A stretch of 40,919 bases of DNA from Nitrospinota bacterium (GCA_016194375.1 JACQBU010000022.1:1-40919); one strand, 5' to 3'; counted from the first letter of the stretch, positions 27,631 through 35,565 are shown. Numbers and translations: made by a program. Notes: a model not told the origin generated them from the letters alone.

Positions 27631-28056
27631 ATGGAAGAACGCAAGGGTCGCGAATCCGTCCTAAAAAGCCTTGGCATGAAGGCCACCCCGAAAAGGCTGG
27701 CCATGCTCGCCGCGCTCGAGTCGGCCAGGGTCTATAAAAGCCCCGAGGACGTCTGGAGGACGCTAAGGCGAAAGTTCGCCGGCATCGGCCTTCCAACCGT
27801 GTACCGCAACCTGGATGAGCTGGAGAAGGGCGGAATAATTTCAAAGGTGATGCACTCAAACCGCCAGCTTTACTACTTTTTCTGCCGGCACAAGGCGCAC
27901 CATCACCACTTCGTCTGCATTTCCTGCCGAAAGGTTCAGGACTTCGCCTCATGCGCCGAAAAGGAGATTGAAAAAGAGATAAAAACCAGCATAAGGGGAA
28001 GGGTGCTTTCGCACATCCTACAGGTAAACGGATTTTGCGAGGAGTGCGCGAGGTGA
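27631..28056 (+). CDS. zur: Fur-family metalloregulator, probably the zinc regulator Zur
   Basis: The 141-residue protein has an N-terminal winged helix (KATPKRLAMLAALE and LPTVYRNLDELEKGGII) and a metal-binding C-terminal half with the His cluster HKAHHHHFVC. Two CxxC pairs (CISC and CEEC) form the usual structural zinc site. Fur-family proteins sense iron, zinc, manganese or peroxide. The assignment to zinc rests on its position: it is the first gene of an operon with znuA, znuC and znuB, behind a Fur-type box. Its stop overlaps the GTG of znuA. Confidence 0.88.
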   Translation: MEERKGRESVLKSLGMKATPKRLAMLAALESARVYKSPEDVWRTLRRKFAGIGLPTVYRNLDELEKGGIISKVMHSNRQLYYFFCRHKAHHHHFVCISCRKVQDFASCAEKEIEKEIKTSIRGRVLSHILQVNGFCEECAR

Positions 28057-28976
28057 GGAGAGCGTTCACGCGGTCTTTGACCGTGTTTGTGCTGGCGCTT
28101 GCCGTCGCCTCGTGCCAGAAGGCGCCGGCGCCAACGGCGCCAAAGCTCCGGGGCCTTACGGCGGTGGCGACGATATTTCCGGCCTATGATTTTGCAAGGA
28201 CAATCGGAGGAGGCAGGGCTTCGGTTCTAATGCTCGTCCCGCCGGGGGTTGAGACGCACGAATACGAGCCTCGCCCGGACGATTTTGTCCGGGTGCACGG
28301 CGCGGATTTTTTCATTTACACCGGCCCGTCCATGGAGCCCTGGGCTGGAACCATCGTCGCCGGAGTGGACCCGCAAAAAACAGAGGTCATAAACCTCGGC
28401 CCCGCCGCGAGGCCGCAGGGCGGTTCGCCCGGCCTTCGGGCGACATCCGATCCGCACATATGGCTTGATTTTTTCGTGGCGGCGAAAATGGCCGACCTCG
28501 TCGCCGAAGGCTTTTCAAGAAGGGACCCGTCAAACCGCGAATTTTACGTTAAGAACGCGGGGGGGCTTAAAAACGCCCTGTCCGCGCTTGACGCGCGTTA
28601 CGCCTCGAGACTTAAGAATTGCAAAAGAGACGTCTTCATCCACGGGGGCCACAGGTCCTTTGACCGGCTGGCCCGGCGATACGGGTTGAGGTACGAGGCC
28701 GCTGTAGATTCGTTCCGGGACGCCGAGCCGTTGCCGGCGAGGATGGCGGAGCTGGCCCGGCTGATGCGCGACACCGGGATAAAATACGTGTTGTACGACG
28801 AGCTTGAAGGCGCGGCGACGGCCTCCGCGCTTGCGAACGAAAACGGGGCTGAGTTGTTGGCCGTCAATTCGGCGCACACGGTTTCCAAGGGTGACTTTAA
28901 AAACGGGGCCACATTCGCCTCCATAATGGAGAAAAACTTGGAACGGCTTGAGAGGGCTCTGGAATGCAAGAGTTGA
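28053..28976 (+). CDS. znuA: Zinc ABC transporter substrate-binding lipoprotein ZnuA
   Basis: The 307-residue lipoprotein has a signal ending in LAVASCQK and belongs to cluster A-I metal-binding proteins. Metal ligands are visible in GVETHEYEPRPDD, SDPHIWLD and FIHGGHRSFDRLARRYGL, with an acidic residue expected near the C-terminus. The long His/Asp-rich loop of many ZnuA proteins is absent; in its place is a short Gly/Pro stretch. GTG 28053 overlaps the zur stop as GTGA and is preferred over TTG 28035. It delivers zinc (or manganese) to the ZnuB permease. Its end overlaps znuC by 13 bases. Confidence 0.88.
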   Translation: MRRAFTRSLTVFVLALAVASCQKAPAPTAPKLRGLTAVATIFPAYDFARTIGGGRASVLMLVPPGVETHEYEPRPDDFVRVHGADFFIYTGPSMEPWAGTIVAGVDPQKTEVINLGPAARPQGGSPGLRATSDPHIWLDFFVAAKMADLVAEGFSRRDPSNREFYVKNAGGLKNALSALDARYASRLKNCKRDVFIHGGHRSFDRLARRYGLRYEAAVDSFRDAEPLPARMAELARLMRDTGIKYVLYDELEGAATASALANENGAELLAVNSAHTVSKGDFKNGATFASIMEKNLERLERALECKS

Positions 28977-29719
28977 TGCGCGTCAAGGGGCTGTCGTTTT
29001 CCTACGGCGGCGCGGAGTCGCTGACCGACGTTTCTTTTTCCGTGTCGGCCGGGGACTACGTGGGGTTGGTCGGCCCGAACGGCTCCGGAAAAAGCACGCT
29101 CGTAAGGGCCGCCCTTGGCATAATAAAGGGCTGGAGCGGCTCGGTTTCGCTTTTCGGGGAAAACGTACTGAACTTCTCCGAATGGCGACGGATTGGGTAC
29201 CTTCCCCAACAGATTGCCGCGTTCAACCAATATTTCCCCGCCACGGTGGAGGAAATCGTGTCGCTGGGCCTCATTTCAACCGGATGGAGCGCGAGCGAGT
29301 CGGCCGAGGCGGTGGAGTCCGCCCTTGACCTGATGGACCTCGGCCAGATAAGGCGCAAATTAATCGGCGAGGTTTCCGGAGGCCAGAGGCAAAGGGCCCT
29401 TTTGGCCAGGGCCGTCGTGAACAGGCCGGAACTGCTTGTTCTTGACGAGCCCACCACCGCCCTCGACCCGGAGACCCGCGAACGGTTCTACGCGACGATA
29501 GGCGAGATGAACAAAAAAATGGGGGTCGCCGTCATACTCGTGACCCACGACATGGGGATGATAGGCAAATACGCGTCGCATCTCCTGTACGTGGACAAAA
29601 GGCTGATATTCAGCGGCGGGTTCGTGGAATTTTGCGAGTCCGAGGAGATGCAACGGTATTTCGGCGAATTCTCGCAACACATAATCTGCCACAGGCACTC
29701 CGGGGAGAGCCATCGGTGA
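28964..29719 (+). CDS. znuC: Zinc ABC transporter ATP-binding protein ZnuC
   Basis: The 251-residue ABC ATPase has Walker A GPNGSGKST (about residues 37-45), a Q-loop LPQQ, signature VSGGQRQRALLARA, Walker B LLVLDEP and an H-loop VTHD. Its length and gene order (znuA-znuC-znuB) fit the metal-uptake family. It is cytosolic and powers ZnuB. The C-terminal tail has a His-containing stretch (SQHIICHRHSGESHR) that could touch metal, which is speculative. The GTG of znuB overlaps its stop. Confidence 0.93.
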   Translation: MQELMRVKGLSFSYGGAESLTDVSFSVSAGDYVGLVGPNGSGKSTLVRAALGIIKGWSGSVSLFGENVLNFSEWRRIGYLPQQIAAFNQYFPATVEEIVSLGLISTGWSASESAEAVESALDLMDLGQIRRKLIGEVSGGQRQRALLARAVVNRPELLVLDEPTTALDPETRERFYATIGEMNKKMGVAVILVTHDMGMIGKYASHLLYVDKRLIFSGGFVEFCESEEMQRYFGEFSQHIICHRHSGESHR

Positions 29720-30546
29720 CGGACCGCTTTTTCGACCTTTTTTCATACCAATTCGCCCTGCGAGGCCTCCTGGCGGGACTGTGCATAGGCGTGGCCTGCT
29801 CGGCGCTGGGGGTGGTGCTGGTATTAAGGAGGTTGTCGCTCATCGGCGACGGACTTTCGCACGTGACGTTTTTAGGCGCGGTGGTCGGCCTGTTGCTCGG
29901 CTCGAGTCCTGTTTATGTCGCAATTCCCGTCGTCATGGCGAGCTCGCTTTTAATATTGAGGCTTACGGAAAAAACGAGGATGTACGGGGACACGGCGATT
30001 GGAATGGTCGGCTCGTTCGGGGTCGCCGGAGCCGTGATGCTTGCCTCCCTGGGGGGCGGGTTTAACTCGGACATTTTTGGGTTTCTGTTCGGCAACATAC
30101 TTTCCGTTAAGCCCGGGGAACTGTACGCCTCGGTGGCCGTGCTGGCGGTTGCGTTGGGCTTCATGGCCGTCTTCTACCGCGAGCTGATGTCCGTTTCGTT
30201 TGACGCGGACTTTGCCAAGACCACCGGCGTCAGCGCGGGGCGGCTAAACGTGGCGCTAGTGCTGGTGACGTCCGTCTCGGTCGTGTTGGCGATTAAGATG
30301 ACCGGCGCGATGCTGACGTCGTCGCTCATCATAGTGCCGGCCGTGACCGCGATTCAGGTAGCCAGGGGCTTCAAAAGCGCGATAATCATATCGTGCGCCC
30401 TGTCCGCCGTTTCGGTGCTGTTCGGCCTCGCGGCCTCGTTCATGATGAACCTGCCGAGCGGCGCGACAATAATTCTTTTTAACATCTTTTTCTTTTTGGC
30501 CTCGGCGCCCCTTAAGAGGTTGGTTCTCCGTCGACACGTTCTGTAA
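29716..30546 (+). CDS. znuB: Zinc ABC transporter permease ZnuB
   Basis: The 276-residue membrane protein of the ABC-3 family has about eight helices, with the N-terminal RGLLAGLCIGVACSALGVVLVLRR and the family-typical RRLSLIGDGLSHVTFLGAVVGLLLG. The MTGAMLTSSLIIVPAVTA block near residue 200 is characteristic. The start is GTG 29716, overlapping the znuC stop as GTGA; the frame extends further upstream inside znuC but without family similarity. It is the last gene of the zinc operon. Confidence 0.92.
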   Translation: MTDRFFDLFSYQFALRGLLAGLCIGVACSALGVVLVLRRLSLIGDGLSHVTFLGAVVGLLLGSSPVYVAIPVVMASSLLILRLTEKTRMYGDTAIGMVGSFGVAGAVMLASLGGGFNSDIFGFLFGNILSVKPGELYASVAVLAVALGFMAVFYRELMSVSFDADFAKTTGVSAGRLNVALVLVTSVSVVLAIKMTGAMLTSSLIIVPAVTAIQVARGFKSAIIISCALSAVSVLFGLAASFMMNLPSGATIILFNIFFFLASAPLKRLVLRRHVL

Positions 30547-31402: not shown

Positions 31403-31429
31403 ATGAACTTTTACCGCTCGTCGAACGTC
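31403..31429 (+). promoter_or_regulatory. ECF-sigma-type promoter upstream of the DUF3300 gene
   Basis: ATGAAC (31403-31408), a 17-bp spacer and CGTC (31426-31429) fit the AAC/CGTC pattern of ECF sigma promoters. The same motif with the same spacing occurs at 33717-33743 before the Spy-like/sigma operon. The expected start near 31436 leaves only about 8 bases before ATG 31444. Confidence 0.6.
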
Positions 31430-31443
31430 AAAATGGATGTAGA

Positions 31444-32621
31444 ATGAAATCGATAGAATTACAATTATTGCGAACATTTCCTGTTTGGGTAATTTGCGTA
31501 TTATTTTGGCCGGCTTCGCCCAGACCGTATATGCACAGGATTATGATGAGTCGCCTAACGGGCCGGGTTCGCCGCTTTCCCAGGGTCAACTCGACCAGAT
31601 GCTCGCGCCGATCGCGCTATATCCCGACGCCCTTCTAAGCCAGATTCTTATGGCGGCAACGTATCCCATCGAGGTGGTCAACGCCGACCGATGGTTGCAG
31701 AATCCGAACAACGCCTCGCTTCACGGGGACGCCCTCGACCACGCCCTTCAGGAACAGCCGTGGGACCCAAGCGTGAAGTCGCTCGTTCCTTTTCCGCAGA
31801 TTTTGCGGATGATGGACGACCATCTTACTTGGACGGAGAACCTTGGCAACGCATTCCTTGCGAATCAGGCCTCGGTAATGGACTCGGTTCAACGACTGCG
31901 CTGGAACGCCAAGAACGCCGGCACGCTGGCCTCCACGCCGCAACAGAGGGTGGTGGTTGACGGCCAAATAATCGTTTTGGAGCCGGCGGACCCTCAGATC
32001 GTATATGTGCCTTACTACAATCCGGCCGTCGTTTATCCGGGATGGGCTTATCCCGCTTATCCGCCGTATTTCTTCCCTTGGTTCGGGTTCGAGGTCGGGT
32101 TCGGTTTCGGTTTTGGCATTGGTTACCCGGTTCTTTGGCCGTACTGGGGCTGGCATCATTGCAATTGGCGCCATCACCGGTTTGACCTAGATAGGGATAG
32201 GTTCAACCGGATTAACTTCGGTCGCCCGCCGATCACTTTTGAAGACTGGCGGCACGATCCGTGGCACAGGCACGGCGTGCGATATCGCGACCCGGAGGTG
32301 CGGGCGCGGTTCCGAGGGGGGGAAGTCCGCCCTCGGCAAGGGAACTTCCGTGGTTACGTCGAGCCCCCCCCGACCCACAACGTCCGTCCGCAGAGAATCC
32401 CGTCTTCGGAACCGCATCGAGCTCCGGCCCCTCAGACGTTTCGCCCTCCGGCCCCGCAGACGTCTCGTCCCCGGGCGCCGGCCTTTGAGTCATACGGCCA
32501 CGGGGCCGAGGTGCGCGTGCACGAGCGACGCGGAATCCAAAGTCTAAAATCGGCGGGAAAAGCCGAGGGCCGCGCCGATACGGTCGGACGCGGCGGATTT
32601 GGCGGAGGGAAAACGCGATGA
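31444..32621 (+). CDS. DUF3300 envelope protein (frameshift in signal peptide)
   Basis: The main frame has the DUF3300 core: LDQMLAPIALYPDALLSQIL, ATYPIEVVNADRWLQNP, QPWDPSVKSLVPFPQIL and VYVPYYNPAVVYPG. It is followed by aromatic/Gly-rich hydrophobic sequence and an Arg/Pro-rich tail. DUF3300 proteins are exported, with unknown function. The best signal peptide, MKSIELQLLRTFPVWVICVL from ATG 31444, lies in another frame. One T missing from the TTTT run at 31504-31507 would join it to LAGFAQTVYA, a good cleavage site, before QDYDES. TTG 31485 is the only start in the main frame and would give a poor signal. The DUF2950 gene follows after 43 bases. Confidence 0.82.
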
Positions 32622-32664
32622 GGCGTTCAAATCAACCGTCCCCCTCGGTAGGGAGTAGCCCATT

Positions 32665-33624
32665 ATGAGGAAGATGAAATTTAAGGAGGGAGGAGTCGAA
32701 CTACGGTTACGGCTTCTAGTCATCGCAGTCGTCCTCGCATTTTCGTTGGGCGCGTCGGGACGGGTTTTCGGGGCCGGCGTGGAACAAAAGACTTTTTCCA
32801 CCCCGCGGGAGGCAGTGGACTCCCTGATTGCGGCCGAACGCTCCGGCGACAAGGACGCACTCCTTCAAATTTTCGGCCCCGAAGGGGCGAAGCTGGTTTT
32901 TTCGGGCGACAAGGTGGCGGACGACGAGGATCGGCGCAAGTTTGTCTCGGCATATGACGACGCGAACCGCGTCGAGACGGATGGGGACGAGAGGGCGGTT
33001 CTGGTGGTGGGCAAGGACGAGTGGCCGTTCCCCATTCCGGTGGTCAAACACGGAGACGCTTGGAGCTTGGACACGGACGCAGGGTTGGAAAAAATCCTTC
33101 AACTGCGGATAGGTCGCAACGAACTCGGCGCCATCGAGGTTTGCAGGGCCTATGTCGACGCCCAGCGCGAGTACGCCTCAAAGGGGCTTGCGAGCAACGG
33201 GTTGACGGAGTACGCGCAGAAGTTTAAGAGCAGTCCCGGAAAACATGACGGCCTATATTGGGACGCCGGCGAGGGGGAGGAGAAAAGCCCTTTTGGTCCT
33301 CTAATCGAAAGCGCGCGGGCGGAGGGGTACGGGGCCGAACAAAGAGAGCCGGGCCGGAATCCGTACCACGGCTATTATTACAAGATACTCACGCGGCAGG
33401 GGGAGAACGCACCTGGCGGGGCCAAGGACTACGTCGTCAAAGACCGCATGACGGAAGGATTCGCGTTGCTGGCGTTCCCGGCTAAGTGGGGGGATTCCGG
33501 CGTCATGACGTTCCTGGTCGCCGAGCACGGAATCGTGTTTCAGAAGAATCTTGGTCCCGACACGGCCGAAGTCGCCGGTAATATCACGGAGTTCGACCCG
33601 GATTTGAGCTGGATGACGCCTTAG
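32665..33624 (+). CDS. DUF2950 exported protein
   Basis: The 319-residue protein has an N-terminal hydrophobic signal (RLRLLVIAVVLAFSLGASG) and the DUF2950 blocks: FSTPREAVDSLIAAERSGD, ILQLRIGRNELGAIEVCRAYVDAQREYA, NPYHGYYYKILT, then FALLAFPAKWGDSGVMTFLV and FQKNLGPDTAE. DUF2950 genes commonly sit beside DUF3300 genes, as here; the function of the pair is unknown. GGGAG precedes the ATG. It is probably co-transcribed with the DUF3300 gene and so belongs to the same proposed ECF regulon. Confidence 0.88.
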   Translation: MRKMKFKEGGVELRLRLLVIAVVLAFSLGASGRVFGAGVEQKTFSTPREAVDSLIAAERSGDKDALLQIFGPEGAKLVFSGDKVADDEDRRKFVSAYDDANRVETDGDERAVLVVGKDEWPFPIPVVKHGDAWSLDTDAGLEKILQLRIGRNELGAIEVCRAYVDAQREYASKGLASNGLTEYAQKFKSSPGKHDGLYWDAGEGEEKSPFGPLIESARAEGYGAEQREPGRNPYHGYYYKILTRQGENAPGGAKDYVVKDRMTEGFALLAFPAKWGDSGVMTFLVAEHGIVFQKNLGPDTAEVAGNITEFDPDLSWMTP

Positions 33625-33716
33625 TAATTCGCCGCCCTTCGAGCGGCGGCACGCGCCAATAATTGTCTTTCCGGACGTTTTTCATTAATTTGACATCTGC
33701 CCCGCCGAAAAATGAC

Positions 33717-33743
33717 ATGAACCTTTTCCACCACTCCTACGTC
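33717..33743 (+). promoter_or_regulatory. ECF-sigma-type promoter upstream of the Spy-like/sigma operon
   Basis: ATGAAC (33717-33722), 17 bp and CGTC (33740-33743) repeat the motif and spacing seen at 31403-31429. The expected start near 33750 gives a leader of about 40 bases. A weaker sigma-70-like TTGACA (33690-33695) with TGACAT 17 bp on could serve for basal expression. Confidence 0.62.
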
Positions 33744-33788
33744 CAATTAAGCATAAGGATGAAAATAACCATGAAAGGAAAGGACCAA

Positions 33789-34286
33789 ATGTACAAAGTC
33801 GCTCTACCAAAGACCTTGACGTTGTTTATCGCCCTGGCGGCGTTGTCCGTATGGGCCGGAAACGCCTCCGCCGAACCCGGCGACAAACGAACCGGGGACA
33901 AGGGGTGGGAAGAGGGCCGCGGTCATGAGGGCGACGGTGAGGGCCGCCGTAAATGGATGGAAAAACTTAACCTGACCGCCGACCAGAGAAAGAGGATTGA
34001 CGCCGTCCGGAGCGAGAGAAAAGAGAAGATGAAGACCGTCGTCGAGCAGTTGCACGCGGAACACCGGAAATTGCGCGACATGCTAAAGGGTGACGCCACC
34101 GACGCCCAGTTGCGGGAACAGCACGGGAAGTACGCGGCGTTGCAGGCGCAAATGGGGGAGACATTCTTCGATTCCATGTTGCGCATACGGGCGGTTTTGA
34201 CCCCGGACCAACGAAAGGAGCTTAAGGTGCACCGTCATGAAGGAAAAGGGGGGGAGTGCGAACGCCGCCGTGACCAAAAGGATTAA
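33789..34286 (+). CDS. Spy/CpxP/CnrX-like periplasmic protein with LTxxQ motifs
   Basis: The 165-residue protein has a Sec signal (LTLFIALAALSVWAGNASA). The helical mature part has two LTxxQ motifs (LTADQ and LTPDQ), the mark of the Spy/CpxP/ZraP/CnrX fold, plus a His/Glu-rich start and a His/Cys-containing end (HRHEGKGGECERRR) that could bind metal. ATG 33789 with AGGAAAGGA upstream was chosen over ATG 33759 and 33771 because it puts the signal at the N-terminus. In cnr-type systems such a protein senses metal and controls an anti-sigma/ECF pair; here the ECF sigma gene follows after 38 bases. The sensing role is inference. Confidence 0.8.
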   Translation: MYKVALPKTLTLFIALAALSVWAGNASAEPGDKRTGDKGWEEGRGHEGDGEGRRKWMEKLNLTADQRKRIDAVRSERKEKMKTVVEQLHAEHRKLRDMLKGDATDAQLREQHGKYAALQAQMGETFFDSMLRIRAVLTPDQRKELKVHRHEGKGGECERRRDQKD

Positions 34287-34324
34287 AGTTAAATGTTGGA
34301 AATCGGCCGCGTTAGAATAAAAAC

Positions 34325-34837
34325 ATGGCTTCAAACGAAAAGGACGACGGCGGCCCGGATCGTTTCCATGCCGTTTATCTCGAACACGCGGAGCTTGTGC
34401 GCGGCGTCATTTACAACATCAGCGGCCCGCTCGACCTGGACGACCTGGTGCAGGAGGCCTTCGTCAAAATTTGGAAGGGATTCGGCGGGTTCAGGAATGA
34501 CGCCAATATAAAGACGTGGATATATCGCATTGCCACGAACACGGCGCTTGATTATTGCAGAAAAAGAACCCCGCGCCTCGCGGAGACGGAGCTCGAGGAA
34601 CTGCCCGGAGGCGGTGAAAACGAGGAGGACGCCGTGCGCCGCGACCTGGTCCATAAAGGAATGCGGCGGTTGTCGTCGGAACATAGGGCGATTGTGACCC
34701 TGTGCGTGTTTGAGGAACTGTCGGTGAAGGATGCGGCGGACGCGCTCGGTCTGCCGGAAGGTACGGTGAAATCCCGCCTTCATTACGCAAAGAGGGAGCT
34801 TGCAAAATTTTTTAACAACAGCGGAGTTAGGGCATGA
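34325..34837 (+). CDS. RNA polymerase ECF sigma factor
   Basis: The 170-residue protein has sigma region 2 (DLDDLVQEAFVKIWKGF and IKTWIYRIATNTALDYCRK) and region 4 (RAIVTLCVFEELSVKDAADA then GLPEGTVKSRLHYAKREL) and nothing in between, the ECF layout. It lies behind the Spy-like gene and overlaps the next gene by 4 bases (ATGA). It is the obvious candidate to read the two matching promoters at 31403 and 33717. The closest functional comparison is CnrH-like or RpoE-like stress sigma factors, but the subgroup cannot be fixed by eye. Confidence 0.93.
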   Translation: MASNEKDDGGPDRFHAVYLEHAELVRGVIYNISGPLDLDDLVQEAFVKIWKGFGGFRNDANIKTWIYRIATNTALDYCRKRTPRLAETELEELPGGGENEEDAVRRDLVHKGMRRLSSEHRAIVTLCVFEELSVKDAADALGLPEGTVKSRLHYAKRELAKFFNNSGVRA

Positions 34838-35208
34838 GCGGCGAATTTAACGAACGAAACATCGAAGGCTTTTTGCTGAAGCATAGGCCGCATCCGCCCT
34901 CGCCGCAGGCCGGCGAATACAAAAGCCTGCTTCTGGCGGCCGGTGGCGGGTCCGTCGTGAAAAGGGGCGAGGGGAGCGGCAAAACGTATCGTTTTGCGTT
35001 CGCATTGGCCGCGGGCATCCTTATTGCGCTGGGGGTAACCCTAAACCTCCGCGGGCACTTTCCTCCGGCCGTCACCAAAGCGTCGGACGAACAGTTGGAG
35101 GCATTCTTGGACGAAACCGTGCGGCAAGTGACGGCAGACCCGCCCCCGTACGACACGAACGCGCCGAACGACGAAATTGAAGGCGTCGGCTACGATAATG
35201 AGCGTTGA
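34834..35208 (+). CDS. Probable anti-sigma membrane protein
   Basis: The 124-residue protein has a cytosolic N-terminal half of about 50 residues, one membrane helix (about residues 53-71, FAFALAAGILIALGVTL) and an acidic periplasmic tail. It shows no zinc-binding HxxxCxxC (ZAS) motif. Its place directly after an ECF sigma gene, with an ATGA overlap, and its topology fit a small anti-sigma factor such as those in cnr-type operons. This is assigned from context only. Confidence 0.55.
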   Translation: MSGEFNERNIEGFLLKHRPHPPSPQAGEYKSLLLAAGGGSVVKRGEGSGKTYRFAFALAAGILIALGVTLNLRGHFPPAVTKASDEQLEAFLDETVRQVTADPPPYDTNAPNDEIEGVGYDNER

Positions 35209-35356: not shown

Positions 35357-35440
35357 GCTTGGATTAATGGAATAACCGCCGACGGCACGAACCTCTATGT
35401 CGCGGACGCCATGAACAACACCATACGGAAAATCCATTAA
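35357..35440 (+). pseudogene. NHL-repeat fragment
   Basis: The frame ending at TAA 35438-35440 reads NGITADGTNLYVADAMNNTI then RKIH, a textbook NHL beta-propeller repeat. It is preceded by an in-frame TAA at 35354. Only one repeat remains, with no start codon of its own, so it is a leftover of a larger NHL protein. The rest of the 35291-35565 stretch holds nothing recognisable apart from a TATAAT at 35349-35354 lacking a good -35. Confidence 0.65.
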
Positions 35441-35565
35441 GACGACGGGCGGACAAGCGAGTGTGAACGCGACAACGACGGTTGGCGCGAAGGGATGGAA
35501 ACTAAAATTTATTGCGGTTTAGTGGAACGGACGCAGTGTGCGAATTAGTTGTTGGAGGGTCGAAA

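Follow-up and report, generated by a model that had tools for sequence, protein, structure and literature searches.

Which regulator governs the DUF3300/DUF2950 gene pair of an uncultured groundwater Nitrospinota bacterium, and is it the extracytoplasmic function (ECF) sigma factor encoded in the neighbouring transcription unit? The question is raised by positions 31403-35208 of a stretch of 40,919 nucleotides (GCA_016194375.1, JACQBU010000022.1; hereafter the window), where one unit encodes a DUF3300 and a DUF2950 protein and the next a Spy-like periplasmic protein, the sigma factor and a predicted one-helix anti-sigma factor. The original prediction for this locus held that the sigma factor controls both units through a shared promoter motif, giving the DUF pair a role in envelope or metal stress. 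Based on promoter searches in this and related genomes combined with analyses of the encoded proteins, we propose that the sigma factor very probably drives transcription of its own operon, of a multidrug-type efflux operon and of the DUF3300/DUF2950 unit. To our knowledge, no ECF regulon has been characterised in Nitrospinota.

Two matching promoters in the window

Both units are preceded, on the + strand, by ATGAAC, exactly 17 bp and CGTC, and the coordinates and spacing originally given for the two motifs are correct. The predicted ECF promoter of the DUF3300-DUF2950 unit (31403-31429) consists of a -35 element ATGAAC at 31403-31408 and a -10 element CGTC at 31426-31429, followed by AAA. 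The predicted auto-regulated promoter of the Spy-ECF operon (33717-33743) has the same elements at 33717-33722 and 33740-33743, followed by CAA. The assigned gene contents likewise hold, with Pfam matches for DUF3300, DUF2950, LTXXQ/Spy and the ECF sigma factor, and with the last gene belonging to no family.

The bare 10-base pattern ATGAAC-N17-CGTC is a poor discriminator, as it occurs four times in the window and 20 times genome-wide (1.9 Mb), often within genes, and its statistic alone would not carry a regulon claim. It was consequently dropped as a genome-wide test and replaced by the fuller pattern TGAACYTTT-N13-CGTCNAA together with a matrix. The fuller pattern has three exact matches in the 1.9 Mb genome, two of which are the sites at 31403-31429 and 33717-33743. 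The matrix was trained on the sigma-operon promoters of five relatives only, with the window excluded from training, and then used to scan the window: among all positions, 33717-33743 scores best (32.2 bits) and 31403-31429 second (29.8 bits), while the next reaches 9.7 bits. In a shuffled control, none of 24.5 million positions scored as high as either site. Sigma-70-like sites in the region show no excess over chance level. The genome-wide tests are pattern searches, and the evidence throughout this analysis is computational.

Conservation of the promoter with the sigma factor

Whole-genome searches showed that five further genomes of the same family encode orthologs of the sigma factor, at 61-65% identity, the named records among them being Nitrospinota and Nitrospinales groundwater assemblies. 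In all six ortholog-bearing genomes, the window's own included, wTGAACYTTT-N13-CGTC, usually followed by TAA, precedes the Spy gene that lies ahead of the sigma gene. An operon carrying its own sigma factor's promoter, conserved along with that sigma factor, is the arrangement expected of autoregulation. No related Nitrospinota genome with the Spy-ECF operon was thus found to lack the motif, in favour of the proposed control of this operon.

Exact matches to the fuller pattern amount to 14 over the six sigma-bearing Nitrospinota genomes and to none in four family members without a sigma ortholog (G002, G003, G005, G007). Four more are present in G010, a genome of 78% completeness where the sigma factor was not found. 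All 18 of these sites immediately precede a gene of matching orientation, and a reversed control pattern, with one mismatch allowed, gave just a handful of matches over the same genomes. More distant Nitrospinota (G015, G016 and G022) contribute three further exact matches, which are alike among themselves. Together with equivalent promoters in other phyla, described below, the conservation of the motif with the orthologs and the absence of exact matches from family members without them strongly support, at the sequence level, the predicted control of both units by this sigma factor.

A second Spy-ECF locus of G004 (L224, G004:C22:11500-12673) ends at a contig edge and has a promoter of its own with one mismatch, TGAACCTATT..GCGTCTAA.

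Candidate regulon members

In the window's genome, the exact sites lie before the DUF3300 unit, the Spy-ECF operon and the gene for an OmpA-like beta-barrel protein; sites with one mismatch lie before a TolC-MacA-MacB operon and a GAF/HD-GYP gene, the latter being a weaker candidate. In the relatives, sites precede adaptor-pump pairs of the RND type, MacAB operons and TolC-like proteins, as well as response regulators, a histidine kinase and GNAT acetyltransferases, and a site with one mismatch precedes a DegP-type protease. The RND pump examined in a relative reaches 1223 bits as a multidrug transporter (MdtB/C-like) versus 396 bits as CusA/CzcA, and hence does not represent a heavy-metal pump of the CzcA/CnrA type. 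As read directly from the genomes, the promoters, their conservation and the genes behind them provide a candidate target list that is the content of an envelope and efflux stress regulon. The originally proposed role in envelope or metal stress is accordingly supported in its envelope half, by TolC-MacA-MacB, the RND pumps and DegP, whereas metal stress finds little support.

A RimJ/RimL-like GNAT acetyltransferase recurs as a candidate member in three genomes (L170, L172 and L229; G006:C50, G010:C216 and G009:C89).

The Spy-ECF-anti-sigma operon

All three genes of the operon are on the + strand. The first encodes a Spy/CpxP-like (LTXXQ) periplasmic protein (33789-34286; PF07813, 2.7e-11) with a likely start at 33789 and a predicted cleavable signal peptide. 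The best solved relative of this protein is Spy (3o39), and an alignment also supports the assignment. The ECF sigma factor follows at 34325-34837 and contains the Pfam sigma-70 regions 2 and 4. The start codon of the third gene (34834-35208) overlaps the sigma stop codon, and alignments, the conserved gene position and a low-confidence model point to a one-helix anti-sigma factor. In the related operons that were read, the corresponding gene also directly follows the sigma gene. The protein is predicted to begin with a short cytoplasmic stretch that contains a conserved RP.P motif, to cross the membrane with one helix and to carry an amphipathic helix in the periplasm; it matched no Pfam family, and the search for solved structural relatives returned none.

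Downstream of the operon, positions 35370-35442 resemble the terminal part of an NHL/beta-propeller repeat (YVADAMNNTIRKIH, then a stop) and appear to be the remnant of a decayed gene.

Relation to SigG-SapG and other envelope stress systems

By a wide margin, the best family match of the Nitrospinota sigma factor is NF009171 (PRK12518), which we take to correspond to the cyanobacterial SigG. Because its score of 140.7 bits remains below the cut-off of 208 bits, which two cyanobacterial-type sigma factors pass with 286 and 288 bits, we classify it from sequence as a sister of this subgroup and not a member, nor as a CnrH ortholog. The SigG-SapG pair is conserved in cyanobacteria, and its targets were listed as unknown in a 2009 review (PMC2758279). 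The features of a SigG-like subgroup are nevertheless present, namely a one-helix anti-sigma factor directly downstream, overlapping at 34834, with its position and N-terminal motif conserved across phyla, a Spy/LTXXQ protein in the operon and a TGAAC-N18-GTC auto-promoter. The cyanobacterial loci that were read likewise combine the sigma factor with an adjoining one-helix anti-sigma factor and a Spy/LTXXQ gene. They differ in gene order, as the Spy gene precedes the sigma gene in Nitrospinota and comes after the anti-sigma gene in the cyanobacterial type.

The same three-gene set of Spy-like protein, sigma factor and one-helix anti-sigma factor is also found in a deltaproteobacterium and a Bdellovibrionales genome, although the Bdellovibrionales protein at the place of Spy, which is of comparable size, matched no Pfam family. 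TGAAC-N18-GTCT precedes the related sigma operons of cyanobacteria, Bdellovibrionales and the deltaproteobacterium, with identical spacing in 13 of the 13 promoters compared; no clear promoter was found at the Silvanigrella locus L088. In the deltaproteobacterial locus the protein in the Spy position is apparently anchored in the membrane, and its Bdellovibrionales counterpart is apparently a lipoprotein (L084, L086), compared with the cleavable signal peptide predicted in Nitrospinota. A separate ECF lineage in one family (L250-L252; G100, G371 and G242) has a conserved gene for a helical protein before the sigma gene and encodes a cysteine-containing anti-sigma-like protein after it, possibly a parallel arrangement.

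Two proteobacterial systems offer partial parallels. The targets of the Cpx/Bae systems of E. coli include DegP and efflux, and their regulons likewise contain a periplasmic protein of the Spy/CpxP fold. Those systems operate through a histidine kinase and a response regulator, whereas the Nitrospinota system has an ECF sigma factor and a predicted anti-sigma factor. A DUF3300 gene of E. coli, yacH, is itself regulated by CpxR (PMC9600279). RpoE/RseA shares with the Nitrospinota system a membrane anti-sigma factor, a promoter of the AAC/GTC type and a DegP-like target, the latter in a relative. It differs in that the Nitrospinota operon has no RseB-like gene, a Spy-like protein being its periplasmic partner, and in the anti-sigma factor, which, as noted above, has no detected solved relative.

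The DUF3300/DUF2950 unit

The DUF3300 protein is encoded at 31485-32621 (+ strand; open reading frame table, PF11737, 1.1e-80), with an uncertain start, its frame running from a TTG at 31485. The ATG closest to the first motif, at 31444, is out of the DUF3300 frame and is followed by signal-peptide-like residues (31444-31540). This mismatch may stem from use of another start or from a disrupted frame, whether genuine or due to the assembly; intact DUF3300 genes are present elsewhere, in plasmid records. The DUF2950 protein, encoded by the second gene of the unit (32665-33624, + strand; PF11453, 5e-108), has an N-terminal signal-like segment and is 39-50% identical to plasmid and genome homologs. 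Single-sequence structure prediction of this protein was useless (pLDDT 40), and a search of viral contigs for relatives that might deepen the alignment found none.

DUF3300 directly precedes DUF2950 here, as it does in plasmids of Caballeronia, Eleftheria, Rhodobacter and Qingshengfaniella and in other genomes. In rhizobia the two are universally co-localised, and a 2015 survey gave no other hint from their neighbourhood (PMC4653623). An HlyD-family gene follows the pair in S. meliloti and ABC/FtsX genes lie a few genes on in Qingshengfaniella, a weak further hint at efflux. Since the pair is absent from the other Nitrospinota genomes searched and few genomes across the domain (6 of 385) have DUF2950, the two genes were likely acquired horizontally; their base composition does not differ from that of their neighbours and thus gives no transfer signal. 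Just upstream of the unit, positions 28035-30546 encode a ZnuA-like binding protein, an ABC ATPase and an ABC-3 permease, i.e. a zinc/manganese-type importer, and carry no ECF motif.

Weighing the explanations

As a whole, an autoregulated envelope/efflux stress regulon that includes DUF3300/DUF2950 appears to us the probable explanation of the sequence data, and we hold it with good confidence. Several observations weigh against it. Neither DUF3300 nor DUF2950 is found in any other Nitrospinota genome searched, and their homologs in plasmids and other genomes lack a matching promoter. A single genome, with a single very good site, therefore carries the tie of the pair to the sigma factor. Where DUF3300 starts is uncertain, and use of the ATG at 31444 would leave a leader of a few bases. 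For the anti-sigma factor, the family search gave no match and the structure model is of low confidence, and support for use of the promoters comes from sequence. The restriction to one genome, the homologs without such a promoter and the unclear start codon speak for a coincidental or relic match before DUF3300, with the sigma factor controlling its own operon and efflux genes only. Yet the site reaches its 29.8 bits on a matrix derived from other genomes, with no shuffled position as good, and it is one of three exact matches in 1.9 Mb, correctly oriented and directly upstream, which makes such a coincidence or relic quite unlikely.

The original prediction also drew on cnr-type metal sensing, in which a Spy-fold protein senses metal and acts on the anti-sigma factor, and the regulon exports or buffers metal. 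The operon indeed resembles cnrYXH of Cupriavidus metallidurans in uniting a Spy-fold periplasmic protein, a small single-helix anti-sigma factor and an ECF sigma factor; the Spy protein scores, below cut-off, with the Pfam heavy-metal resistance family, and the ZnuA-like transporter lies close by. However, a profile search of solved structures matched Spy chains and not CnrX, the CnrH matches of the sigma factor rank below those to SigL, SigE, RpoE and others, and the searches gave no motif site at the zinc transporter. The candidate targets are of the multidrug and envelope type, as the pump scores illustrate, and not of metal efflux, and the cleavable signal peptide predicted for the Spy protein is a further difference from CnrYXH. 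The metal reading was hence rejected on sequence and targets, and we consider it unlikely. That another sigma factor, the C135 ECF or the housekeeping one, reads these promoters while the neighbouring sigma factor reads others is very improbable: the genome does encode one other clear ECF-type sigma factor, but this one is divergent and is not preceded by the motif, sigma-70-like sites do not rise above chance, and the motif tracks the Spy-linked sigma factor across genomes and phyla.

Proposed mechanism and implications

For the favoured regulon we infer the following mechanism, from promoter use by the sigma factor and the function of the anti-sigma factor to the sensing and feedback roles of the Spy-like protein and the signal that induces the system. 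The one-helix anti-sigma factor, translated right after the sigma factor, would hold it at the inner membrane via its N-terminus, while the Spy protein would act on its periplasmic helix. When the periplasm or outer membrane is disturbed, probably by misfolded proteins or by toxic compounds that act on membranes, these would engage the Spy-like chaperone and titrate it away, and the sigma factor would be released. The released sigma factor would then read TGAACYTTT-N13-CGTCNAA promoters, among them that of its own operon, forming a positive loop, and induced Spy protein would restore inhibition as negative feedback. Further targets would be the TolC-MacA-MacB operon, the OmpA-like outer-membrane protein and the DUF3300-DUF2950 unit, the products of which are secreted or periplasmic factors, probably acquired horizontally and put under an envelope-defence regulon.

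More broadly, there is in our view an even chance that Spy-partnered, SigG-like ECF modules form a widespread envelope-stress system, seen here in groups as far apart as cyanobacteria, Bdellovibrionales and Nitrospinota, that they share a single conserved promoter and centre on efflux and envelope quality control, and that the DUF pair serves envelope defence and is open to recruitment by unrelated envelope-stress regulators, an ECF sigma factor in this bacterium and Cpx in E. coli. For this SigG-related subgroup, the analysis yields a concrete promoter pattern and a list of candidate targets. The conserved secreted proteins DUF3300 and DUF2950 have no known function; their placement in the proposed regulon would be the first genomic tie of the pair to cell-envelope defence via an ECF sigma factor, and provides a directly testable hypothesis on their role.

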